Shown in pieces: positions 636-16,567 of a DNA stretch of 64,000 nt. The position numbers were made by a program, and so were the translations under genes. The notes beneath the pieces were generated by a model. The model did no database searches and was not told the DNA's origin. It saw only the letters and a list, made by a program, of their open reading frames with translations. Within the stretch, counting starts at the first letter, position 1. Each line of letters begins with the position of its first letter. Source of the DNA: Consotaella salsifontis (GTDB lineage Bacteria; Pseudomonadota; Alphaproteobacteria; Rhizobiales; Rhizobiaceae); the NCBI RefSeq assembly GCF_900167365.1, contig NZ_FUXL01000008.1, forward strand, positions 1 to 64,000, given 5' to 3'.

Positions 636-1786
636 ATGCCGTTGTCGTTGGCTGGGGCGAGTTCTTCGGCTTCAAGGAACGCCGCGATGAAGTCGCGCGT
701 GGCTTCCGCGTCGACCGCGTTGCCGTAGGCGCGCAGTCGTCCCACTCGGGAGGGAGCCCCATGAGCCAGCGGGAATGTGCCGGGTTCAACTGGCCGCCAC
801 TTTCCATCCCGGCAGAAGAGCCAGTCAGCATCTCGCCAGAAGCCGTTAGTCGGGCCGGGCTCGCCATATCGGCAGCGGTCGGAAGGTTGCTCGGCGTCGC
901 TCGGCCTTCCCGTAGCATCCGCGCTTCCTGTCGTTCGACGTTGCTGGTGCAGTCCAGAGCTTTCGGCGTTGGCCAGCCTGCCAGATGCACCGCCTGATTG
1001 TTCAGTTGTTCGCCCTTCTTCCCGCCACCTCTCTCCGACCACGGAAGGGCATTCGCGTGGCGGTAGTCGCGCTGTGTCGGCGTCGCCCATCCCGTCATCG
1101 CCGCATCCGCTGGCAGCGCTCCGCCCGATTGGTTCGGGCCGCCGTTCGATCCATCCGTCGCGCGGGGCGTGTTCCAGCCGGTCAGTTGCGCCGCGTCAGC
1201 TGGATTGAGGCCAAATCCCTTCGCCTTCCTCGCATCGGCTGTCTCGCCCTGACCGTGGTTTGTCACAGTTGGCGTCGGCCAACCGCTTCGCCGCGAATCG
1301 CAGTCTTTGCCGGATGTGCGGGGCGCCACTGCCCGCAGAGCAGGTATCGACCGCCCCGAAGGCGTAGCCCGCTCCTTCCATGTCAGCCGATACAAGGTCG
1401 AGCCAGCCAAGGCCGTCCTTGCTCGCAACCTGCTCGCCAAAGACGATTGCAGGGCGGCACTGGCTGATGAGGTGGAACCATGCGGGCCATAGGTGCCGCT
1501 CGTCAGCAAACCCGCCGCCTTTGCCTGCCGCGCTGAAAGGCTGGCAAGGACAGGAGCCGGTCCATACAGGACGGTCGTCGGGCCATCCGGCGTTTCGGAG
1601 AGCGTAGGACCAGACACCGATTCCGGCGAAGAAGTGGCACTGAGTATATCCAGAAAGCTCGTCTGGACGGACATCTTCGATGCTCCGCTCGTCAACGTCG
1701 CCCGGCGCGATGTGCCCGGCGGAAATAAGGTTGCGCAGCCATTGAGCCGCGAACGGATCGATTTCATTGTAATAGGCGTGAGGCAT
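614..1786 (-). pseudogene. DNA cytosine-5 methyltransferase, interrupted by an in-frame TGA
   Basis: The frame starting at ATG 1786 has C5-methyltransferase motifs: motif I FFAGIG (about residue 54), the catalytic PCQPFS loop (about 83), a GEQV segment at the ENV position, and PHIRQRLRF at motif VIII. It then hits TGA at 1196-1198. The same frame is open from 1195 to 614 and holds the family's C-terminal part, including the AYGNAV motif X near 700. So one nonsense codon splits an otherwise complete protein of about 390 codons, inside the variable target-recognition region. The fragments may be non-functional or may work by readthrough or as a split enzyme. A second long frame overlaps (634-1674). 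The ATG overlaps the stop of the upstream zinc protein (ATGA), so the locus belongs to the early operon. Confidence 0.75.
634..1674 (-). CDS. Overlapping phage ORF with GWxTP repeats, lying over the C5 methyltransferase
   Basis: This 346-codon frame runs unbroken over almost the whole C5-methyltransferase gene in another register. It starts at ATG 1674 with GGAG eight bases upstream. The N-terminal third is rich in Ser/Thr/Ala/Pro. Then come four modules beginning GWPTP, GWNTP, GWATP and GWPTP, spaced about 30-40 residues. The end, [19 protein letters not shown], resembles the NPxxxxWLMGxP segment I know from phage cytosine methyltransferases. From memory, proteins of this kind are widely annotated in proteobacterial phages; this is recollection, not a search. 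Either it is real and the locus is dual-coding, or it is a conserved shadow of the repeats in the true frame. I think expression is plausible but unproven. Confidence 0.5.
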
Positions 1787-2133
1787 CAAAACGGCGCCTC
1801 CCCCTCGCTGAGCGTCTTGTGCAGCCGATCAGCGCAGCCGCGCCAGATCGTGCCGACGAACCGCAACACCTGATCTTCAGACCATTCGGAAAGGTCGGCG
1901 CCGAACTCCTCCACGAGCGGCGCGGCAGCATCCATGCCGCCCTCGCGCGCCTTCATCTCGTATGGATCGAACCGCCGCACCTCGCGGATGCGCTCCAAAA
2001 GCGTGAGGCATTCAGAGCACAGATAACGCGGATCGCCGGTAGGCTTGCCAATGCCGATGCCGACGGCATGCATGCCGCAGACATGGCAGACGGTCGGCGT
2101 GCCATCCTTGGCCGCTGTTGGAGTGAAGGTCAC
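1786..2133 (-). CDS. Small zinc-finger protein, function unknown
   Basis: This 115-residue protein starts at GTG 2133 and overlaps the stop of the upstream methyltransferase by GTGA. Its clear feature is a probable zinc site near the N-terminus: CHVCGMH at about residues 16-22 and CSEC at about 39-42. The rest is a charged, helical region without a recognised fold. The stop overlaps the start of the C5 methyltransferase, so the three genes are translationally coupled. A role as an accessory to DNA modification is a guess from position only. Confidence 0.7.
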   Translation of the reverse strand: MTFTPTAAKDGTPTVCHVCGMHAVGIGIGKPTGDPRYLCSECLTLLERIREVRRFDPYEMKAREGGMDAAAPLVEEFGADLSEWSEDQVLRFVGTIWRGCADRLHKTLSEGEAPF

Positions 2134-5775: not shown

Positions 5776-6308
5776 CACGCCGCCCTCACACTGAGGACCT
5801 CACCAGGCTCACTCATTTTGGCGCCGCGCACTTTCTCGCCGGCATCGAGGGCTGACTTGATTGCGGTCTTGTCGGGTGTCGTCGTAACCTTCATGAACCG
5901 CTTCGGGACCTTCGTTTCATCGACGATCTCGACTGACGCGCGGCCCTTGCCGATCGACAGCGTCGCTTCTGCCAAGTTGACCTTGCTGAGAGCTCCGGCC
6001 TTCATCAGTCGAAACAGTAGCGCGCGCATGGCGTCCTTGCGCCGCTCGTATCGCGCTTTCCGCACTTGAAGGTCTTTGACGCGCTCGCCGACGGCCGCCA
6101 TCATGCTGTTGGCGTCGCGCTCGATCGCCACGATCTTCGAAAGAACTCGGTGCGCGTCGGTCTCGCCCTCGATGGTGTCAGCCCGCAGCGTCTCGTCTTC
6201 GACGAGTTCGGGATATGCGGCGAGCAGGTCGGCGAACTCTCGCTCGAGCAGCGTCACGTCGTAGGCGAGATAATTGGGATTGGGCGCACGATTGTCGTTG
6301 GCCGGCAT
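5775..6308 (-). CDS. Siphovirus Gp157-like protein
   Basis: This 177-residue protein has the signature of the siphovirus Gp157 family: an N-terminal helix, a long charged coiled-coil centre (ERDANSMMAAVGERVKDLQ, RRKDAMRALLFRLMKAG), and a beta-rich C-terminal end with VPKRFMKVTTTPDKTAIKSAL. Gp157 of a Streptococcus thermophilus phage was linked to phage resistance, and family members usually sit near recombination genes. I chose ATG 6308 over the longer frame because GAGGAG lies ten bases upstream. The leader has an operator-like GTAAAATGGT copy, so CI may control an internal promoter here. The N-terminus carries the ANDN tetrapeptide. Confidence 0.75.
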   Translation of the reverse strand: MPANDNRAPNPNYLAYDVTLLEREFADLLAAYPELVEDETLRADTIEGETDAHRVLSKIVAIERDANSMMAAVGERVKDLQVRKARYERRKDAMRALLFRLMKAGALSKVNLAEATLSIGKGRASVEIVDETKVPKRFMKVTTTPDKTAIKSALDAGEKVRGAKMSEPGEVLSVRAA

Positions 6309-6349: not shown

Positions 6350-7447
6350 GGCGCACCAACGCGCGCCGTGCAGAGTGCGGCATTCGTCCACGCCGCTTTG
6401 GCTGGTTGCCCTTGCGATCAGCCGTGCGCGGATCGCGGTGTCTGCGTTCATACCGCGCCGCACGAGGAAGGCGAGCGAACGCAGTTCTGGAGCGAGCAAC
6501 TGAACAGGCCCAGTCGCAAAATCCTTCTGCGGCAGGTTGTCATTCGCCGCCACGAACCCGCAGAGTTCTGCGGCAGTGCGCCGGATGCCGGCCATAACGT
6601 CATCGCGATAGCGCCTGGCAGCATCGGCGTCGGCGTCATCAAGAAGGGGCAGAACGTCATCAAGCCCACCGCCGAGAACGAGCGCCAGGATGTTTTTCTC
6701 CTGCAAGATGCCGTCCTTAGCCCGGTGCTTGAGCACGTAATCTTCGCCCTTGGCCTTGACCATCGTGCCATCGTCCCACCGCACGACGAAGCCTTCCTTG
6801 CCGACGACGGCGCGTGCGAAGGCGATGAAGTCGGCGGCGGTGGAGTAGCTGGACTGGAAAACCGGAGCGCACGGCATGCCGGTTCGGACAATCGCGTCGT
6901 GTGGCCAATATGATCCGTCGACCGTGTTGCGCACAGCCAGCAGCGTCAGCGCGCTTTTCTCGTATCGCACGACGATTCGGTTGTCGGGCGCGGTCCATTC
7001 GAAGATCGGCGTCGCGCCGCCGAGCAAAAGGCCGCAGCAGAATTCACGGACGCTTGGCGTCAAGTGCCGCTCGGCTTTTTGGGCATGCTCGGTGCGCCCC
7101 ATGCGCGTCATGAGCACAACCTCGCCATCGATGATGGCCGGGTGGATCATGGTGCCGTCGAGCTTCTCCAGGACAGTGTGTGGCCGGCTAAAATCAAGCA
7201 TGCGCGGCAGTGTTTCGCGCCGCTCGCCGACGTTGAAGAACTTGTGGAGCGGCCGCGCCAGAACCGAACCGTCTGGCGAGAATTTGATGCCGCGGCACTC
7301 GCCCCGGATTGGATCGTCGAAACTGTCGTCGATCGCAAAGACGTAATCGATCACGGTGTAGTCGCCCTTGTCGGCGACAACGAACTCGGGGCGACCCTCA
7401 ACATGGGGCAAAACGTCGTTGATGTGGCGGATCTTCGGAAAGGTCAT
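6347..7447 (-). CDS. T4 Rnl1-type RNA ligase
   Basis: This 366-residue protein is an ATP-dependent RNA ligase closely resembling T4 RNA ligase 1. Visible features are HKFFNVGE at about 69-75 (T4 has KFFNLTE), the nucleotidyl-lysine motif I EKLDGT with Lys95, motif IIIa FEWTAPDNRIV at 149-159, motif IV EGFVVRW at 218-224, and motif V MVKAKGEDY with Lys231/Lys233. It seals 5'-phosphate to 3'-hydroxyl RNA ends, for example cleaved tRNA anticodon loops. Its ATG overlaps the TGA of the kinase-phosphatase gene (ATGA), so the two steps of RNA repair are made together. The C-terminal region contains an ANDN tetrapeptide. I am confident of the family; the natural substrate is inferred from T4. Confidence 0.92.
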   Translation of the reverse strand: MTFPKIRHINDVLPHVEGRPEFVVADKGDYTVIDYVFAIDDSFDDPIRGECRGIKFSPDGSVLARPLHKFFNVGERRETLPRMLDFSRPHTVLEKLDGTMIHPAIIDGEVVLMTRMGRTEHAQKAERHLTPSVREFCCGLLLGGATPIFEWTAPDNRIVVRYEKSALTLLAVRNTVDGSYWPHDAIVRTGMPCAPVFQSSYSTAADFIAFARAVVGKEGFVVRWDDGTMVKAKGEDYVLKHRAKDGILQEKNILALVLGGGLDDVLPLLDDADADAARRYRDDVMAGIRRTAAELCGFVAANDNLPQKDFATGPVQLLAPELRSLAFLVRRGMNADTAIRARLIARATSQSGVDECRTLHGARWCA

Positions 7448-8379: not shown

Positions 8380-8424
8380 CGGTGCTCTCCTCAGTGGCAA
8401 TGGGGTGGCGATTTCCTTACCCTA

Positions 8425-8443
8425 TTACAATTTCACCATTTCG
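8425..8443. promoter_or_regulatory. Operator-like site before the RNA-repair genes
   Basis: TTACAATTTCACCATTTCG reads GGTGAAATTGTAA on the minus strand, an 8-of-10 match to the GTAAAATGGT operator core. It lies in the short gap between the helicase stop and the Pnkp start, where a separate repressed promoter for the RNA-repair pair could act. Confidence 0.35.
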
Positions 8444-8447
8444 TCAA

Positions 8448-10160
8448 TCAAAATGGTATCTCGTCAGCATCGTTCCACGGTACGTTGTCGTTTGCCGCGT
8501 CGTCGCCGACGACGCGCGCGCCTGGTCTATGCCCCTTGACATCGGGATATTTGCTCGACTGAGAGTAATCGAGCTGGATCTCGGCCGTTGGCAGAAGTTC
8601 GCCTTGCCTGCTCAGCCATTCGTCAACCGCCGTCGGGCAAGGCAATGCGCCGCCATGCTGACGCCAGAAGCGGTCAGCCTTGGTCTTCGGGAACTGCCGG
8701 CTGCGCGGGTTGGGATGCTCCATGTGCTGAGGGCACACCCACTCGTTTACCGTCTTCATTCCCACCATGTACGTGACCTTCACGCTTGGCGGGTTGCTCT
8801 CGATCTTGGGTGGGTGAAATCTGAAAGTGCGAGACTTGACGGTCGCCCACGCCGCGCCCTCGGTCGAAAGCACCGGCACATATTCGGCCTCGCGCGAAAG
8901 CTTCTCCTCCTTCTCCGGCTCGGGGAAGATGAAGCCGCAGTCAACGCACACCCTCGCGCTGGCGTGGTTGATCGAGCCGCATCCACATCTGCCGGTCGGA
9001 TCGGTTCCGTCACGCGGGCAAAGCCGTACAGGCGCTTCGCCGGTGCCGCTGCGCGGCGCGCTTGGCGTCACCGCATCGATCGGCCCATGCTTGGAGACGT
9101 TGCCGGCGAAATCCAGCACAAGGCAGTTCTCCTTCCCTGGCGCCAGCCTGAGGCCGCGCCCGATCATCTGGACGTACAGGCTCGCCGAGAGGGTCGGGCG
9201 CATCATCGCGAGCAAGTCGATTCCAGGGATGTTCGTGCCGGTCGTCATCACGGCGTTATTGGTCACGGCCCTGATGCGTCCCGCCTTGAACTCTTCCAGG
9301 ATGCGGCGGCGCTCATCCGATGGCGTCTCGCCGGCAACCGTCTCGCAGCTGATGCCGCGCGACCTGATCTCATCGCGAACGTGATATGCGTGCTCAAGTC
9401 CAGAGCAGAAAAGCAACCACGTTTTGCGGTCGTGGCCATAAGCGCAGACTTCGTCGATTGCCGCCCGCGTCACCTCAAACTTATCGACGGCGGCCTGCAG
9501 CGCATTCTGCTTATAGTCGCCGCCGAGCTTGCCGACGCCGGTCAGATCGTATCTGGTGGCCATGCCTTTGCTGATCGGGCGAGACAGCCATTTTTCCTCG
9601 ATCATCTCGCCGATCGGCTTTTCATAGGCGATGGCGTCGAAGATTGCGCCATCGCCCTCCGTGAGCAGCCCTTCGCCGAGCCGAAATGGCGTGGCCGTCA
9701 TGCCGACCAACCGCAAATCCTGGTTGATGGACCGCAGACCTGCGAGCAGCTGGCCATATTGCGTCTCGGCGTTACGCGGCAAGAGATGGGCTTCATCGAC
9801 CATGACGAGATCGAAATGGCCGAGATTCGTCGCCTTGCGCGAGATCGTTTGAACTCCGGCGAAGAGGATCTGCGCATGGGCATCCCGGCGGCCGAGCCCG
9901 GCAGAGTAGATGCCGGCTGGCGCCAGTGGCCAGATGCCGACAAGCTCGCGGTAGTTGCTCTCGATCAGCTCCTTGACGTGCGTCACTATCATGATGCGCA
10001 TGTCTGGATAATCGCGGATGAGCTCCTGGCAAATCGTGGCCAGGATGAGGCTCTTCCCGCCGCCAGTCGGCACGACGATGAGCGGCGAACCGCCTTCCCG
10101 ACCCCAATAGTCATAGAGGGCATCGATGGCGTCTCGCTGGTAGTCTCGCAGCTTGAGCAT
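8448..10160 (-). CDS. DEAH-box SF2 helicase with zinc ribbon and SSB-like tail
   Basis: This 570-residue helicase has Walker A VPTGGGKS (30-37), DEAH (122-125), motif III GMTATP (about 151-156) and motif VI QMIGRGLRLAPGK (about 350). A cysteine-rich zinc ribbon follows near residue 395 (GRCGCGS, CVDCGF). The last residues, NDADEIPF, match the acidic, Phe-ended tip of bacterial SSB (DDIPF type), which recruits repair and replication proteins. ATG 10160 overlaps the TAA of the upstream gene (TAATG), so I prefer it to the longer frame. Phage helicases of this type act in replication restart or recombination. The C-terminal tail also has an ANDN tetrapeptide. Confidence 0.88.
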   Translation of the reverse strand: MLKLRDYQRDAIDALYDYWGREGGSPLIVVPTGGGKSLILATICQELIRDYPDMRIMIVTHVKELIESNYRELVGIWPLAPAGIYSAGLGRRDAHAQILFAGVQTISRKATNLGHFDLVMVDEAHLLPRNAETQYGQLLAGLRSINQDLRLVGMTATPFRLGEGLLTEGDGAIFDAIAYEKPIGEMIEEKWLSRPISKGMATRYDLTGVGKLGGDYKQNALQAAVDKFEVTRAAIDEVCAYGHDRKTWLLFCSGLEHAYHVRDEIRSRGISCETVAGETPSDERRRILEEFKAGRIRAVTNNAVMTTGTNIPGIDLLAMMRPTLSASLYVQMIGRGLRLAPGKENCLVLDFAGNVSKHGPIDAVTPSAPRSGTGEAPVRLCPRDGTDPTGRCGCGSINHASARVCVDCGFIFPEPEKEEKLSREAEYVPVLSTEGAAWATVKSRTFRFHPPKIESNPPSVKVTYMVGMKTVNEWVCPQHMEHPNPRSRQFPKTKADRFWRQHGGALPCPTAVDEWLSRQGELLPTAEIQLDYSQSSKYPDVKGHRPGARVVGDDAANDNVPWNDADEIPF

Positions 10161-10504
10161 TATTCGCCCCCTGCCTCGATACGCGCCATGAACTGATCGA
10201 AGTGCTCGCTCTCGCGCCGGCCTTCGCGCCACATGCGCAGGTACTCAGTGCGCGCGATCAAAAAATCTGGATCGTCGCGGCGGCTGTTGAAATAACGCGC
10301 GAGCGTCCGACGCCTGCGGGCGCGGTGCGCTGCCGCCCACTCTGGATCTTTTGACGCTTTCTCGCGCTCTCGCTCTTTGCGGCGCCTTGCGATGGCCGCC
10401 CGCTCATCTGGCGTCATCGCCGCATATCGCCTGGCCATCCGCTCGCGCGTAGCGGCACGCTCGCGCTCGCGGTGTGCATCGGAATATCCACTGCGATCGG
10501 CCAT
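10160..10504 (-). CDS. Small Arg-rich phage protein
   Basis: A 114-residue, highly basic and helical protein full of Arg/Ala/Glu (HRERERAATRERMARRYAAM, ARRRKEREREKASKD). The composition suggests a coiled coil or nucleic-acid contact. Its start overlaps the stop of the sigma-like gene (ATGA) and its stop overlaps the helicase start. No family is recognised; similar Arg-rich ORFs near phage nucleases exist, but I cannot assign a function. Confidence 0.6.
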   Translation of the reverse strand: MADRSGYSDAHRERERAATRERMARRYAAMTPDERAAIARRRKEREREKASKDPEWAAAHRARRRRTLARYFNSRRDDPDFLIARTEYLRMWREGRRESEHFDQFMARIEAGGE

Positions 10505-11004
10505 CAGGAGGCCATCCCAATCAGCCGGCGGCGCTCCTGCTTAATGACATAGCGAACGCGCGTCGGCGCCGTGCCATGCCTGTCGGCTATTTCTGCGTAG
10601 TGATCACCCATGGCCGACGCCATGAGCATGTCTCCGGGCACCCCCGACGATCGGCCCGCGATGATCGAAAGGTCTGCCGCTGCCTCTTGCGCTGGATTGA
10701 TCGAGACGACAGTGGCTATGGCGTCATCCATGCTGATTGTCGTGATGGATTTGCGCCGCCGCTGGTTAGACGCGATCCCCCGCATGGTCACGGATAACCA
10801 CGCCCAAAAACCGATATCCGTCGGGGAGCCGCGGAAATTCACCCACCGCTCACAGACGAGCGCGACCGTGTCGTTGACCAGATCATCGGCGTTGTGCGGG
10901 GCGATCCGCTTGGCCAGCCGCCGCAGGCCGGGCAAATAGGCGACAAGGCGATTGTCAAACTCGGCGGGTCGATCTGATGGGATGTTGTCGTTGGCGCTGA
11001 TCAT
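10504..11004 (-). CDS. Phage-encoded sigma-70/ECF-like factor
   Basis: The 166-residue product resembles an ECF sigma factor. Residues about 17-75 look like region 2: a helix with LPGLRRLAKRIAPHNADDLVNDTVALVCERW, then the FWAWLSVTMRGIASNQRRR stretch. Residues about 125-160 look like a region 4 helix-turn-helix (YAEIADRHGTAPTRVRYVIKQERRRL). ATG 11004 overlaps the nuclease stop (ATGA) and is preceded by GAGAGGGAAAG, so I use it instead of the longer frame. It may direct host RNA polymerase to late or middle phage promoters. The N-terminus begins MISANDN, another ANDN copy. The sigma assignment rests on pattern only. Confidence 0.65.
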   Translation of the reverse strand: MISANDNIPSDRPAEFDNRLVAYLPGLRRLAKRIAPHNADDLVNDTVALVCERWVNFRGSPTDIGFWAWLSVTMRGIASNQRRRKSITTISMDDAIATVVSINPAQEAAADLSIIAGRSSGVPGDMLMASAMGDHYAEIADRHGTAPTRVRYVIKQERRRLIGMAS

Positions 11005-11930
11005 GACTTTCCCTCTCCGTCCACCCACGTCTCACCGTTGCGAAGGCGGTATGTGATGGTCTCGGATTCTTCGTTGACGTCGACTTGTTCGCCGGGCACG
11101 AGCGAGGGGATAAAAAGGTGGGCCTCGCATGCAACCTTCTGCTCATCGAATGAAAGCGGCTTGGCCCACCGCGCACATGACCAGTGTGCGTCTCCGCACG
11201 TCTCCGGCGTCGAGTGAATGCACGACCGGCACGTCACGCGTGGCCACGCGCCATCGTGGCAGGCAGATCGATGCTTGCAGAACAGGCACGGCGGGATGTC
11301 CGGGTTGTCGCTGACACGCGATGGCGGCTCTGGCGTGTTGATGATGCGATCGAGACGCGCCAACAGCCGCAGCGTGAATTCGGCGTCATAGGTGATGCGC
11401 TCGGCATAGAGGGTGTCGTCGTTCTTGCAGCTGACGAGGTATAGGCACCGCGACAGGCCAAAGGCGTGCATTCCAAGCTGGCACTGGCCAAAATGGAGAG
11501 GCTTCGCCTTCTGGCATCCGTGCTTGATGATCTCCTTCATGCCCTTCTCGTTGGAGCTCTTGAACTCCAGCAAGTGCTCGGTCTTCGGCGCCTCCGGCAG
11601 ACCAGTGACCTTGCCGTCGCACTTGCCACGGACGTGGGAACCGACGAGGCGGATGCGGTCTTGCTGACCGTAAACATCGACGCCGATCCGCCGCAGATCA
11701 TCGACGAGACGATCCTCTTCGATGTTGCCGGTCTCAAAGAGGCGCAGCTGGCGGCCGTGGTGCTTTTCAAGTGGCGATGCCCACCGGAAAGAGTACCAGA
11801 GCTGCCGATCGCATTCGGCGTTGGCCTCGCCGACCGATATGCCCAGGCTGTCCCATGATTCGGCCGCCGCCTCGTAGGCCGCGTAGATCGCGCGTACTGT
11901 CGAAGCCTGCGGCTTGGGAAGCGGGGCCAT
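11001..11930 (-). CDS. PD-(D/E)XK nuclease with Cas4/AddB-like Fe-S cysteines
   Basis: This 309-residue protein carries the core PD-(D/E)XK residues: Asp105 in GKCDGKV, the E-x-K pair in LLEFKSS (Glu122, Lys124), and Gln in FGQCQLGMHAFG (about 149-151). A cysteine near the N-terminus (Cys40, ECDRQLWY) and a C-terminal CLFCKHRSAC group (215, 218, 224) match the 4Fe-4S arrangement of Cas4 and AddB nucleases. A further cluster CRSC ... C ... C follows at 234-252. It probably makes single-stranded ends for the Sak4-like recombinase. The stop overlaps the sigma-like gene and the start overlaps the upstream TAA. Confidence 0.82.
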   Translation of the reverse strand: MAPLPKPQASTVRAIYAAYEAAAESWDSLGISVGEANAECDRQLWYSFRWASPLEKHHGRQLRLFETGNIEEDRLVDDLRRIGVDVYGQQDRIRLVGSHVRGKCDGKVTGLPEAPKTEHLLEFKSSNEKGMKEIIKHGCQKAKPLHFGQCQLGMHAFGLSRCLYLVSCKNDDTLYAERITYDAEFTLRLLARLDRIINTPEPPSRVSDNPDIPPCLFCKHRSACHDGAWPRVTCRSCIHSTPETCGDAHWSCARWAKPLSFDEQKVACEAHLFIPSLVPGEQVDVNEESETITYRLRNGETWVDGEGKS

Positions 11931-12201: not shown

Positions 12202-13269
12202 TCACACCCTCATCGGCATGAGGACGCCGAGCCATTCCGGATCGGCCTGGCTGGTGAAGAGTGCTGGCGCTCCACCGTCGTCGAGCGCAATCTGAACGGG
12301 TCCTTCGGGAGCCGCGGCCAGCATCTCGCTCAGATACCGACTGGAAAAACCAATGCCGATCTCACTACCGCTGAATGCGATCGCGATCGCGTCCTCGGCG
12401 TCTCCGTCACCATGAGACGACAGAGCGCATTCATCGGATGCGAACGCGAGCTTAATGCCGCTCCCTTGTTGCTTTGACACCACCGAGACGCGATCGACCG
12501 CGGCGACGAGGTCGTCACGATCGACGGTTGCCACGCTCTCATTGTTGCGCGGGATAACGCGCTTGAAGTCAGGGTATGTCCCGTCGACCAGCCGCGAAGT
12601 GATGATGGTGCTGCCGGATGTCAGCCGAATCCTGGATTCGCTGACCGCAACGGTAATCCTCCCCTTCGGGATGAGCTTCAGCGTCTCGCGCGGGACAATG
12701 ATCCCGGCGGACAGAACGCCTGGCGCAATCTCGCCGGCGGCAATCGCGTTGCGAGCCAGGCGGTGGCCGTCAGTTCCAACCGTGACGATCTTGCCTTCGT
12801 CGTGGTGAAGCAGCACGCCGTTGAGGTAAAAGCGGGTTGAATCCGTCGAGACCGCGAACGCCACCGGCGCGATCAAAGCCGCGAGGTCGATCTCGAATTC
12901 AGCGTCGAATTGCTGATCCGCGATATCCGGGAAATCCTCGGCAGGAAACGTCGGCAGCTTGTACCGGCTTCTGCCGGACTTCAGAATGAGCTGCGAATCC
13001 TTCAGCTCCAGGGTGATGGTCTCCGACGAGACCTTGCGCACGGCATCGGTGAGTGTCTTCGCGCTGACACAGACGGCGCCAGGTTCGCACTCAAGCGCGA
13101 TTGAATTCTTGATTTCCACGTTCAGATCGGTTGATCTGATTTCCAATCCTTGGAAAGTCGCATTCAGAAGCACCGTCGCAAGGATTGGAATGGTGTTTCT
13201 CGACTGGACAACCAAAGAATTCGATGTTAACAGACGCATGAATTCGGTGCGCTCTATCTCAATTCGCAT
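12202..13269 (-). CDS. dnaN: Bacterial-type DNA polymerase III beta sliding clamp (phage copy)
   Basis: The 355-residue product aligns along its whole length with DnaN: N-terminal MRIEIERTEFMRLL, domain 1 SRNTIPILATVLLNA, the TDGHRLA segment (about residue 167-173), a domain 3 YLSEMLAAAPEGPVQIALDD, and the canonical end VLMPMRV. Clamps form ring dimers that tether polymerases and bind many partners through short clamp-binding motifs. It is slightly shorter than the usual 366-372. It lies inside the prophage recombination block, so it is a phage copy separate from the host gene. No phage DNA polymerase is visible here, suggesting that it serves host polymerase or recruits phage partners. The leader carries GGTCTAGCGG, shared with the DUF669 gene. 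Confidence 0.93.
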   Translation of the reverse strand: MRIEIERTEFMRLLTSNSLVVQSRNTIPILATVLLNATFQGLEIRSTDLNVEIKNSIALECEPGAVCVSAKTLTDAVRKVSSETITLELKDSQLILKSGRSRYKLPTFPAEDFPDIADQQFDAEFEIDLAALIAPVAFAVSTDSTRFYLNGVLLHHDEGKIVTVGTDGHRLARNAIAAGEIAPGVLSAGIIVPRETLKLIPKGRITVAVSESRIRLTSGSTIITSRLVDGTYPDFKRVIPRNNESVATVDRDDLVAAVDRVSVVSKQQGSGIKLAFASDECALSSHGDGDAEDAIAIAFSGSEIGIGFSSRYLSEMLAAAPEGPVQIALDDGGAPALFTSQADPEWLGVLMPMRV

Positions 13270-13398: not shown

Positions 13399-13992
13399 TC
13401 ACTTCCCCCATGGACGCTTCTTGGCCGGGCCTGATGAGGCACCCGCCTGCGCCGCGCGGCTGGCTGACTGACCATGGCGGGCCGGTGGTGTGGCGCCGCC
13501 ATGGCTTGAAGGTCGCTCAGCCGCAGGCGATGCTGCCTCAGGTTCAGGCACATTACCCTCATCGGGGTAGAAGTAGCGCTTCACCTCGGCGCGCGCCGGG
13601 TACCTTGGATTCCCGCTTTCGTCCTTCTCCTTGGAAGGCTTGCCGAGGCCGATCTTTACGACGTAGCTGCGGAAGTGCAGCTCCTCGCTGTCCTCAACCT
13701 CAACCACGCCGATGGCGCGGCAGAGCTGGGCGAACTGGCGCTGGCCGATCTCCTGCGCCTGCGGGTTGCTGTGTTCGAGGTTGAAGGTGTCGAAGAACTT
13801 TCGATCCTTGAACTCTTCGGGGCGGAGGACGACCGCCGTCGTCTTCAGGATCGTCCCGTTGCCTTTTGAGTTTTCCTTGACTTCGGAAGCCTCGATTTCG
13901 AGCTCGTAGATGCCATCGGGCAATTCATCGTACTGCCCATGCGAGTCGGTATCGTGCTCGCTGGCATCGAATTTTCTGCCAAGATTTGCCAT
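13399..13992 (-). CDS. DUF669 family phage protein (single-strand-binding-like)
   Basis: The 197-residue protein opens MANLGRKFDASEHDT and contains DGIYELEIEASEVKENSKGNG and YVVKIGLGKPSKEK, typical of the DUF669 family, which occurs next to phage recombinases and is thought to bind single-stranded DNA. The C-terminal 60 residues are low-complexity (Pro, Ala, Ser, Gly) and end in PAKKRPWGK. It lies between the Sak4-like gene and the clamp gene, the usual place for an annealing or recombination accessory. The binding function is inferred from context. Confidence 0.78.
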   Translation of the reverse strand: MANLGRKFDASEHDTDSHGQYDELPDGIYELEIEASEVKENSKGNGTILKTTAVVLRPEEFKDRKFFDTFNLEHSNPQAQEIGQRQFAQLCRAIGVVEVEDSEELHFRSYVVKIGLGKPSKEKDESGNPRYPARAEVKRYFYPDEGNVPEPEAASPAAERPSSHGGATPPARHGQSASRAAQAGASSGPAKKRPWGK

Positions 13993-14175: not shown

Positions 14176-14946
14176 TTACTGGGCGCCAGTGGGATGGGGG
14201 AAGTGCTGGCAGAGCTTCGAGTAGCCCTCCCCCTTTCGGTATGGAATCACGTCCGGCATCCCGTACCGGTTCTTGGCCGTGAAGCCGGCGCGCTCGGCAA
14301 GATGGATCTGTCGCTCCTGCCCACCCTCGGCGTGCGCGACTTTTGTCTGCCGCGCCACTTCCTTTTCTTTGATGCTAATGCGGTAGTTCATGAAGGCGAC
14401 GATGTCGGCCTTTTCGCGCACGAGAGCATTCGCCCGCTTGTGTAGCTTGATCCCATATCTGCTGTATGGATCGCTGATCGGACTGTCGAAGCGCACAATC
14501 TCGGGGTGCGCCAGTTGCACGACAGCAACACCCCTCGATTTCAGCGCCAGCACAGCCGACAGGTACTCCAACCATTCGGTATCGGCCTCGACATACCCCT
14601 TGCCGAATCCGGGCTCCTCGATCGACGATACGCCAAGCCGGCGGCACGTGGCCTGCCAGACGAGATTTTCCAGGCCGTCGAGGCTATCGACGATGGCGGT
14701 CTTGCGGTCGTGCTCCTCCGTGAGAAGCTCGGCGAAAAGATTGAGCAGATCGTCGAAACTCTCGATCGTTCCCGGTGTTGGCATCTCGATATCCGACGGC
14801 GGCTCCTCGCCTTCCGTCGGCAGGTAGATCGGATCGGGGAACTCGGCGGCAAGTGATGTCTTGCCGACACCATCGACACCGTAGATCAGGAACACGGGCG
14901 GCTTGTCGCTTTTGGTGGTCTTCATTCCGGCAAGGCTGATGGCCAT
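14176..14946 (-). CDS. Sak4-like RecA-fold ATPase (phage recombinase)
   Basis: This 256-residue AAA/RecA-type ATPase has Walker A YGVDGVGKTSLA (about 23-34) and Walker B AIVDSLDGLENL (about 84-95). The central part ends VVQLAHPEIVRFD. It matches the small, single-domain Sak4 recombinases of phages, which work with DUF669/SSB-like partners, exactly as placed here. The start ATG 14946 lies after AAGAGGGC. Another ATPase of the AAA_24 group with a different job cannot be excluded, but the neighbours favour recombination. Confidence 0.82.
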   Translation of the reverse strand: MAISLAGMKTTKSDKPPVFLIYGVDGVGKTSLAAEFPDPIYLPTEGEEPPSDIEMPTPGTIESFDDLLNLFAELLTEEHDRKTAIVDSLDGLENLVWQATCRRLGVSSIEEPGFGKGYVEADTEWLEYLSAVLALKSRGVAVVQLAHPEIVRFDSPISDPYSRYGIKLHKRANALVREKADIVAFMNYRISIKEKEVARQTKVAHAEGGQERQIHLAERAGFTAKNRYGMPDVIPYRKGEGYSKLCQHFPHPTGAQ

Positions 14947-15223: not shown

Positions 15224-16567
15224 TCAGGCGGCTTCGCGCTTTAGCCAATCATCTACGGCGTCTTTGGTCGTCGCGAGGCCCATGCCCGTCATCGATCGCA
15301 GCATCTTGATCGCTTCAATCTTTCTGCCGCACGCTGCGAGACGCTGCCATTCGTAATCATAGGTCTTTTCGACCTTGCGATTGGCGACCATCTCGAACAC
15401 TGCGAACTCGGCGCCCTTGATCACGTTCGCCAGCCGGCTAGCTTCGGCTTCAGCCGCCGACTTCGATGGATGGACGCACGGGTGCAGCGACGGCTTGGGC
15501 TGTGTGCCGTCCATCTTGGCGACGATCCAGACAGGGCTGATTGCCGCCGCATCGTCATCGACGATGTCGAAAATTTCATTGTACACGAGCCGTTCGTCGC
15601 CGTCGTTGTCGCGGAAGAAGGCGCAATCTCCATTAACTCGTGTGATGGTAAGGACGTCTCCGGCGACATAGCCGTTGCACCAATCGCTATCCTTGGCGCG
15701 GATTTTCATGCCGACGCGGAAGGCGCTCACCGCGGGATCGGTCGGTTCGTTGTCGTTGGCCGGTGCCCTGTCCAGGCGGCTGGCAGGCAGCCACCACCCA
15801 GAATAGTCTGGCGTCTTGCCGCCACCAGAATGGCCACCAGTCCAGCCGTCGAAGCTGATCAGGTAAGACGAATAATCGACCTCGACGACCGTACCGACAG
15901 CGTCAGTCGGGTCGCCATCCCTGGATTTCACGCGATCGCCGACGCGGAATGTCGTGCCCCCGCTGGTCGCACCATCGCTGGCCAGCACGGGCGCGGCGAT
16001 TCTTGGCATCACATACCATTTGCCGTCGCCCCTGATCTCCCTGTCGAAGCGAACGAGCAGAATGCCGGATTGGGTGATGTCGACGACCTCGCCCTCGTCA
16101 CCCTCGGCTCCGAACCCGCCATTGTCGGCCGTCAGCCGAACGCGATCGCCGATCTTGAACGCATGATCAGGCCCTTTGTCCCACCCGACAAACGGGTCAA
16201 CGACGTCGATATGCTTGTCGTCGACCCATCCGATCATGCCGGCGATATCGACGCCATAATTTATGCCGGAGCCTTCATCGCAGACAACAGAGATCACGCC
16301 GTCCTTGTGGTCCGTATGCGGCCCAAAGAACCAACTGCTAGAGCATTCGTCGGTGAATTTGACCTTTGCGCCGACCGGCAGAGTGACGGGCTCGAAGCAG
16401 TAGGTCGGCTGGCGGGTTGGGTCGCCGTCGTCGTCTGCAACGACGACCACGCAATTGTCGATATCGACATCTCCGACCTTATAGATCTTGCCTTCGGTGA
16501 ACCATGAGATATCAGCCCTGACGCATCGCACGAGATCGCCGGACTTGAATTCGGTGTCGTTACCCAT
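15224..16567 (-). CDS. Repeated SH3/Tudor-like phage protein with L7/L12-like C-terminus
   Basis: This 447-residue protein is built from repeated small beta-barrel-like units, each starting with a G-D-x-V turn (KSGDLVRCV, KIGDRVRLT, RVGDRVKSRD, RVGMKIRAKD) and containing a Trp/Gly-rich loop, as in KOW, Tudor or MIB/HERC2-type SH3 folds. A linker with PANDNEP separates the third and fourth units. The last 34 residues (about 414-447) contain KIEAIKMLRSMTGMGLATTK, strongly like the L7/L12 ribosomal stalk C-terminal domain (K-x3-IK-x2-R-x2-TG-x-GL-x3-K). It is early in the operon after the HTH gene. Function is unknown; it could bind RNA polymerase, ribosome or nucleic acid. Confidence 0.7.
   Translation of the reverse strand: MGNDTEFKSGDLVRCVRADISWFTEGKIYKVGDVDIDNCVVVVADDDGDPTRQPTYCFEPVTLPVGAKVKFTDECSSSWFFGPHTDHKDGVISVVCDEGSGINYGVDIAGMIGWVDDKHIDVVDPFVGWDKGPDHAFKIGDRVRLTADNGGFGAEGDEGEVVDITQSGILLVRFDREIRGDGKWYVMPRIAAPVLASDGATSGGTTFRVGDRVKSRDGDPTDAVGTVVEVDYSSYLISFDGWTGGHSGGGKTPDYSGWWLPASRLDRAPANDNEPTDPAVSAFRVGMKIRAKDSDWCNGYVAGDVLTITRVNGDCAFFRDNDGDERLVYNEIFDIVDDDAAAISPVWIVAKMDGTQPKPSLHPCVHPSKSAAEAEASRLANVIKGAEFAVFEMVANRKVEKTYDYEWQRLAACGRKIEAIKMLRSMTGMGLATTKDAVDDWLKREAA

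Follow-up and report, generated by a model that had tools for sequence, protein, structure and literature searches.

When SSB coats DNA, its C-terminal tip, MDFDDDIPF in E. coli, is understood as the means by which the coated DNA calls in host repair proteins. A phage locus in the genome of Consotaella salsifontis raises the question why a tip of this kind should stand at the end of a helicase, and which protein it would serve to reach. The locus lies in the window analysed here, a stretch of 64,000 nucleotides (contig NZ_FUXL01000008.1, positions 1 to 64,000). We describe the helicase and its tip, trace the tip through related phages and weigh the partners on which it may dock.

The helicase of the window and its C-terminal tip

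The helicase closes a phage cassette encoded throughout on the minus strand, in the gene order Sak4-like annealing protein, DUF669 SSB, sliding clamp, Cas4-domain exonuclease, sigma-like protein and helicase. The features of the window that enter the argument are the following.

1786..2133, minus strand: DUF6511 protein with the end GEAPF, in the phage of the window a second and looser candidate for a tip (ORF translation)
8448..10160, minus strand, stop codon included: RadD-like SF2 (DEAH) helicase, 570 aa (ORF, Pfam, PHROGs, RadD comparisons)
8451..8474, minus strand: SSB-type C-terminal tip NDADEIPF (helicase translation, genome pattern search)
8475..8540, minus strand: variable, predicted-disordered linker between core and tip, holding ANDN at 8484-8495 (alignment, pLDDT)
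11001..11930, minus strand: Cas4-domain exonuclease (phrog_1990, E 7e-97)
12202..13269, minus strand: phage sliding clamp, DnaN-like (Pfam, PHROGs)
13399..13992, minus strand: phage SSB (DUF669), ending RPWGK, without an acidic IPF tip (Pfam, PHROGs, translation)
14176..14946, minus strand: Sak4-like annealing protein, a possible phage partner of the tip (Pfam, PHROGs)

The mechanical ORF of the helicase spans 8448-10232 and begins with GTG. Intact close relatives begin with the motif M/V/L-L-x-LR-x-YQ, and from this motif we placed the start at base 10160 and chose the length of 570 aa. Pfam finds the domains ResIII and Helicase_C and, among its matches to the protein, no SSB-family domain; the phrog_16 DNA helicase profile matches over the core (residues 23-568, E 5.8e-97). 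An antisense open frame of 604 aa on the plus strand (window 8382-10196) spans the entire gene and is probably a by-product of codon bias.

By sequence, the nearest solved relative is E. coli RadD (YejH; phmmer E 1.6e-68). The two proteins are alike in sequence and fold: the SF2 motor, the zinc region and the C-terminal domain of RadD are all found, and four cysteines, invariant among the helicases, lie in the region of RadD's zinc ribbon. Comparison of the predicted model with RadD (PDB 8h5y/6jde/7r7j) gives Z 37.2 over 454 aligned residues (model residues 1-549) at an rmsd of 13.0 Å, a deviation which may reflect a different domain arrangement of the model. Since the score of 286 bits falls below the curated NCBIfam equivalog cut-off of 720 bits, we call the protein RadD-like and not RadD.

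The C-terminus reads DDAANDNVPWNDADEIPF, followed by the stop codon. The preliminary description had claimed an SSB-like tip at this end, and the tip is real. Phe occupies the C-terminus, Pro position -2 and an aliphatic residue position -3, acidic residues stand just before this hydrophobic end (NDADEIPF), and the whole sits at the end of a variable, predicted-disordered linker. The bacterial SSB motif is built in the same way, with a C-terminal Phe, Pro at -2, Ile, Val, Leu or Met at -3, acidic residues at -4 to -6 and a variable linker. It differs in its carrier, which is an OB-fold SSB and not, as among the phages, an SF2 helicase, a four-cysteine protein, a clamp or an exonuclease. The SSB of the host itself ends SHDLDDEIPF. 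In the host's family and order (41 genomes searched, 30 loci kept), the SSB tip is DDEIPF in 21 genomes, DDDIPF in seven and DDEVPF in two.

The motif is rare in the host genome. As a degenerate DNA pattern for [DE][DE]-x-P-F-stop, where x is I, V, L, M or F (T at the second codon position), GANGANNTNCCNTTYTRR matches the 4,652,084 bases twice, once at the helicase stop and once at the end of host ssb; GANGANNTNCCNTTYTRR read backwards matches once. The host ssb is also the only match to PF00436, the bacterial SSB family, in the 33 contigs of the genome. Between the helicase (GACGAGATACCATTT) and host ssb (GACGAAATCCCGTTC), four of the five DEIPF codons have different third bases, and the helicase tip was therefore not copied recently from the end of ssb.

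The AlphaFold model of the helicase has a mean pLDDT of 89.7, against 60 and 54 for the final two ten-residue blocks; these low values suggest that the tail is disordered. The start of the linker, at about residue 541, was set by eye. The claim of a disordered tail with the motif ANDN before the tip thus stands for the variable, low-pLDDT linker that holds ANDN. We reject ANDN itself as part of the tip device; it is present in the linker and not tied to the tip. The peptide occurs in six minus-strand ORFs of the phage, in four of them near the protein end (window 641-652, 6291-6302, 6536-6547, 8484-8495, 10984-10995 and 15749-15760). Its DNA pattern has 23 matches in the host genome (two in the backwards control), among them the six in the window, six in C15:90180-116018 and one in the tmRNA gene. 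The tag encoded by the host tmRNA is ANDNYAEARLAA, so ANDN equals the start of this degradation tag. Docking of an SspB-type adaptor is what we take to be a possible meaning of ANDN; a literature search for SspB together with AANDN found no paper.

Conservation and distribution of the tip among related helicases

Relatives of 44-62% identity keep the tip (DDDIPF, DDEIPF, DAVPF, DEVPF and similar ends), while their linkers vary in length and sequence. Free variation of the tail in close homologues, which the preliminary description had named as evidence against the tip, is thus seen in the linker and not in the tip. At this identity or higher the tip is missing from locus L019, with DDEINDAMYL at its C-terminus, and from L037 and L052, where the reading frame stops early; in L032, L035, L038 and L042 the contig breaks off before the C-terminus is complete. 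The end DDEINDAMYL is shared by L019, L237 and L242 (a viral contig and two Brucella/Ochrobactrum records), close relatives of which end DDDIPF. None of the distant helicases L054-L060 (25-33% identity) has the tip.

For a wider count, incomplete, cut or partly matching frames were removed. This left 191 complete helicases followed by 500 bases or more, of which 104 form a non-redundant set (<85% identity). Defined strictly, with Phe and Pro fixed and D, E or N required just before the aliphatic residue, the tip is present in 43 of these 104 helicases and absent from 61. Position -3 in the 43 is Ile in 33, Val in seven, Leu in two and Met in one. Acidic residues occupy position -4 in 86%, position -5 in 95% (Asp in 40 of 43) and position -6 in 79%, and beyond about -10 no clear positional conservation was found in this set. 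The fixed residues are encoded by both codons for Phe and by all four for Pro. In Sinorhizobium phage 16-3 (L080) the helicase, p088, has the end LDDEVPF.

Presence of the tip goes with the length of the tail: 43 of the 64 helicases with tails of at least 15 residues are tipped, and none of the 40 whose tails are shorter. Of the 21 tailed but tipless helicases, six have in common S/T/G/A-rich tails ending TSxxGxxA, and four of these are followed by a DUF6511 frame with a tip-like xPF end that closes 221 bases further on. The helicases of L167, L170, L171 and L173 end INDEIVF, MNDGIPY, INDSIQY and FNDSIPY, which look like degenerate or altered tips.

We also applied a looser tip expression, in which Ala is allowed at -3 as well, to the fetched loci. 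It matches 51 of 129 distinct helicase ends as against 65 of 12,635 other distinct stop-to-stop frames; most of the 65 resemble DUF6511 proteins, and the rest include host ssb and other tip carriers. DUF6511 relatives in related phages often end xPF. As a strict tip carrier the family was rejected for now, its ends ranging over EVPF, EAPF, DDPPF, SECPF, RFP and others.

On a helicase tree from a quick maximum-likelihood search under a simple model, the tip occupies two deep clades and scattered rows. Parsimony requires eight changes of state, six of them forced by starred branches.

A small four-cysteine protein and further carriers

Overlapping the 3' end of part of the tipless helicases, or near it, lies a four-cysteine protein 61-87 residues long, which mostly ends IPF or VPF. 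It belongs to phrog_23504, a PHROGs family without assigned function. Most of the members examined have an IPF or VPF tip like that of the window, on a separate protein, whereas the tip of the window is on the helicase itself. The clade with this protein includes many phages of Gammaproteobacteria, and its tipless helicases mostly stop at the folded core. Ten aligned members from named phages have ten invariant columns, namely the four cysteines, N34, P55, P56, G63 and the final Pro and Phe. The predicted model of the protein is poor (mean pLDDT 53).

Within 1.5 kb downstream, the small protein accompanies none of the 43 tipped helicases and 16 of the 61 tipless ones. Fifteen of the 16 end IPF or VPF, and two (L083, L096) belong with phrog_31018, a related family. 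Eleven of the 16 are seeds of the profile, picked from tipless loci for ending in a tip, and a fair test is therefore limited to the eight distinct profile hits that are not seeds: four have an acidic IPF or VPF tip, two IPF without an acid, one APF and one no tip. A less circular sign that the end of phrog_23504 is kept may be seen in the alignments: all 40 tblastn rows among the matches listed reach the C-terminal residue of the query, and likewise the match to the PHROGs profile covers its final position. In all, 50 phage records contain a tblastn match to the phrog_23504 protein.

Searched over whole records, several of which may be fragments, none of 13 tipped phages had phrog_23504 at a credible score. 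The one match in the L079 record (21 residues, broken by a stop, E 0.006) was discounted. Three tipless positive controls were found, but all three are members of the alignment used as the query. The genome of the window has no credible match either. Conversely, the helicase is tipless in 14 of the 14 named phages with a phrog_23504 gene that were examined (Halfdan, Langgrundblatt1, R3, birk, Kharn, Vibrio 1.117, Baskent_P4_1, ply2008005c, ART, PBPA162, XAJ2, Pavpe01, nyashin_LB6 and PSASB_03). In Halfdan, on E. coli K-12, the gene overlaps that of the helicase, whereas PBPA162 has it between queE and queC, at a distance from the helicase. Among the Queuovirinae, PaMx25 and Seurat have the tip on the helicase, and Vibrio 1.117 has the small protein instead. 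Unannotated phrog_23504-like frames were seen in Pseudomonas phage Baskent_P4_1 (L247:2968-3165), Stenotrophomonas phage ply2008005c (L248:1638-1835) and Pseudomonas phage PSASB_03 (L286).

The exclusion of helicase tip and small protein has its limits. Fisher's test of tipped and tipless helicases against the small protein gives p = 1.3e-4, a value which ignores kinship and is not independent evidence; it overstates the exclusion because the latter follows clades, with few evolutionary switches. A test of independent pairs on the tree yields six pairs, in almost none of which the small protein differs, so that significance is unreachable. For 42 of the 61 tipless helicases, DUF6511 apart, the 1.5 kb downstream contain no small protein and no other tipped ORF, and no tip was found in L180, L206 and L217, which sit among carriers on the tree.

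Other members of the cassette can carry the tip as well. In LPPA15 (L095) it is the clamp, which ends FEDDIPF, and no small protein was seen there. With their families checked, the DUF669 SSB bears the tip in L030 and L144 and the Cas4-domain exonuclease does so in L157 and L175. L144 and L157 combine this with a tipless helicase, L030 and L175 with a tipped one. One tip per cassette is consequently not a rule, as L030 has tips on helicase and SSB and L175 on helicase and exonuclease.

The tipped DUF669 proteins are exceptions in their own family. Of 137 distinct C-termini, 125 have PW within the last 12 residues, two end DDDIPF, one EPPF and nine have neither. A PW or PPW motif near the C-terminus is thus common to phage DUF669 SSBs (125 of 137) and is apparently a tail motif of their own.

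Possible docking partners of the tip

The reading that we favour, and to which we give an even chance, is that the tip serves as a docking tag, by which the phage recombination module is joined to SSB-binding proteins of the host, the identity of its carrier being secondary. The preliminary description, which suggested that a helicase with this tip could hijack the host SSB interactome or compete with host SSB, is supported in part, for the type of the motif and for the presence of SSB partners in the host; hijack and competition are conjectural. The tip would be a working copy of the bacterial SSB docking motif on the flexible tail of a RadD-like helicase. The phage DUF669 SSB, by its sequence without such a tip, would coat the phage DNA, and the helicase would supply the tip to a recombination and replication module of Sak4, SSB, Cas4-type exonuclease and clamp. 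Docking on the pockets of host SSB-interacting proteins, for example RecO or Pol III chi, both of which the host encodes, would then bring these proteins to phage DNA. The range of such partners is wide in E. coli, where the SSB tip docks on ExoI, RecO, RecQ, chi, PriA, PriC, RNase HI and RadD according to the excerpt of PMC10238739 on which we draw. We infer a host protein as target because the helicase tip has kept to the consensus of the host, unlike the tail of the phage SSB. If another protein of the cassette bears a host-type tip, the docking site that the phage SSB is without would be back in place, and that the module has a tip would matter more than which protein bears it, the different carriers being presumably equivalent in function.

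More tentatively, this reading may be extended to the related phages. The tips would be a relocatable plug of those cassettes whose SSB is without a host-type tip, would recruit host partners, and phrog_23504 would be a dedicated carrier.

The main rival places the partner within the phage. The tip would dock on Sak4, or on another protein of the cassette, and hold the recombination complex together without host proteins. It is the main rival because of phage HK620, where the DUF669 SSB acts through its tip to stimulate the cognate Sak4; in the excerpted text of PMC5928155, the last six residues of that SSB, NDYPPF, are needed for most of the stimulation. HK620 has the same kind of cassette as the window, and there an SSB-like tip matters for recombination (PMC5928155, same excerpt). 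It differs in the carrier: NDYPPF stands on the phage SSB, whereas here the phage SSB ends RPWGK and the helicase bears the tip. A Sak4-like gene and a DUF669 SSB are both present in the cassette of the window, and six of 18 annotated phage records label the gene at that place Sak4-like, the others having ATPase/AAA or hypothetical entries. Against a phage partner speak the Sak4-labelled genes in phages with tipless helicases (L083, L090), and the consensus itself, since a co-evolving phage pocket would not need a host-type tip, and phage SSB tails are of the PW type. We regard a phage partner as unlikely, though as a reading to be taken seriously.

Clamp binding is another conceivable function for a motif of this kind; yet in L095 the clamp itself bears the tip.

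The tip could further be a decoy, occupying the pockets of host SSB partners and thereby keeping host repair proteins off the phage DNA. It has the sequence of the host tip, and an isolated SSB-Ct peptide binds to E. coli RadD with a KD of 5.4 uM (PMC10238739, in the excerpt). A decoy would, however, call for a high copy number and for no place on the helicase, clamp or SSB of one recombination cassette, and a micromolar motif on an enzyme would compete only weakly with abundant SSB. We consider this improbable.

As RadD itself receives the SSB tip, we also considered whether the helicase binds its own. The tip would fold back into a RadD-type pocket of the same protein and, as a tethered activator acting in cis, stimulate the ATPase in place of host SSB. 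The excerpt of PMC10238739 describes the precedent: RadD binds SSB-Ct in a pocket of motor domain 1, lined by T16, L17, F20, L44, L113 and L147 with the three arginines R21, R49 and R145, of which R21 and R49 are both needed in E. coli, and binding stimulates the RadD ATPase. RadD is in this respect the receiver of a tip (PMC10238739), whereas the phage helicase, its homologue, bears one. The hydrophobic half of the pocket is kept in the helicases. The frame of three arginines is not: the helicase of the window has G at the position of R21 and R at those of R49 and R145, two of three. Among the 43 tipped helicases the R145 position is K or R in 41, but those of R21 and R49 are basic in only nine each; in the 61 tipless ones the counts are six for R21, 16 for R49 and 60 for R145, which is no telling difference. 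The low pLDDT of the tail (60 and 54) corresponds to no confident docking in the AlphaFold model, and the same tip occurs on other proteins too. Self-docking is thus supported neither by residue conservation nor by the predicted fold, and we hold it to be very improbable.

Least probable of all is a functionless chance product of a short acidic disordered tail: short motifs do arise easily, and 21 of the 64 relatives with tails of at least 15 residues are without the strict tip, but the pattern matches only twice in 4.65 Mb, both times in a gene and once in ssb, the end is kept amid free variation of the linker, and its several changes of state on the tree (eight by parsimony, six forced by starred branches) speak against chance.

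As single elements, SSB tip, RadD fold and Sak4/DUF669 cassette are already known. Apparently new are a host-type SSB tip carried by a RadD-like helicase of a phage and the exchange of this tip with a small neighbouring gene. The literature matches listed, which cover few subscription papers and are thus weak evidence of absence, contain no report of an SSB-type tip on a phage helicase or of its exchange with a neighbouring gene, and the excerpts of PMC7861564, PMC11253446 and PMC11981726 mention no helicase, as a protein distinct from SSB, with such a tip.

Phages that coat their DNA with a tipless SSB would cut themselves off from the call to host repair that the SSB tip provides. If the helicase or its tiny neighbour restores the tip, this would explain how such phages still reach the repair and restart proteins of the host, and it would provide a function for the anonymous family phrog_23504. 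The occurrence of the tip on the helicase in some phages and on a small neighbour in others suggests, as far as sequences can tell, that these phages plug into the host repair machinery in this way.
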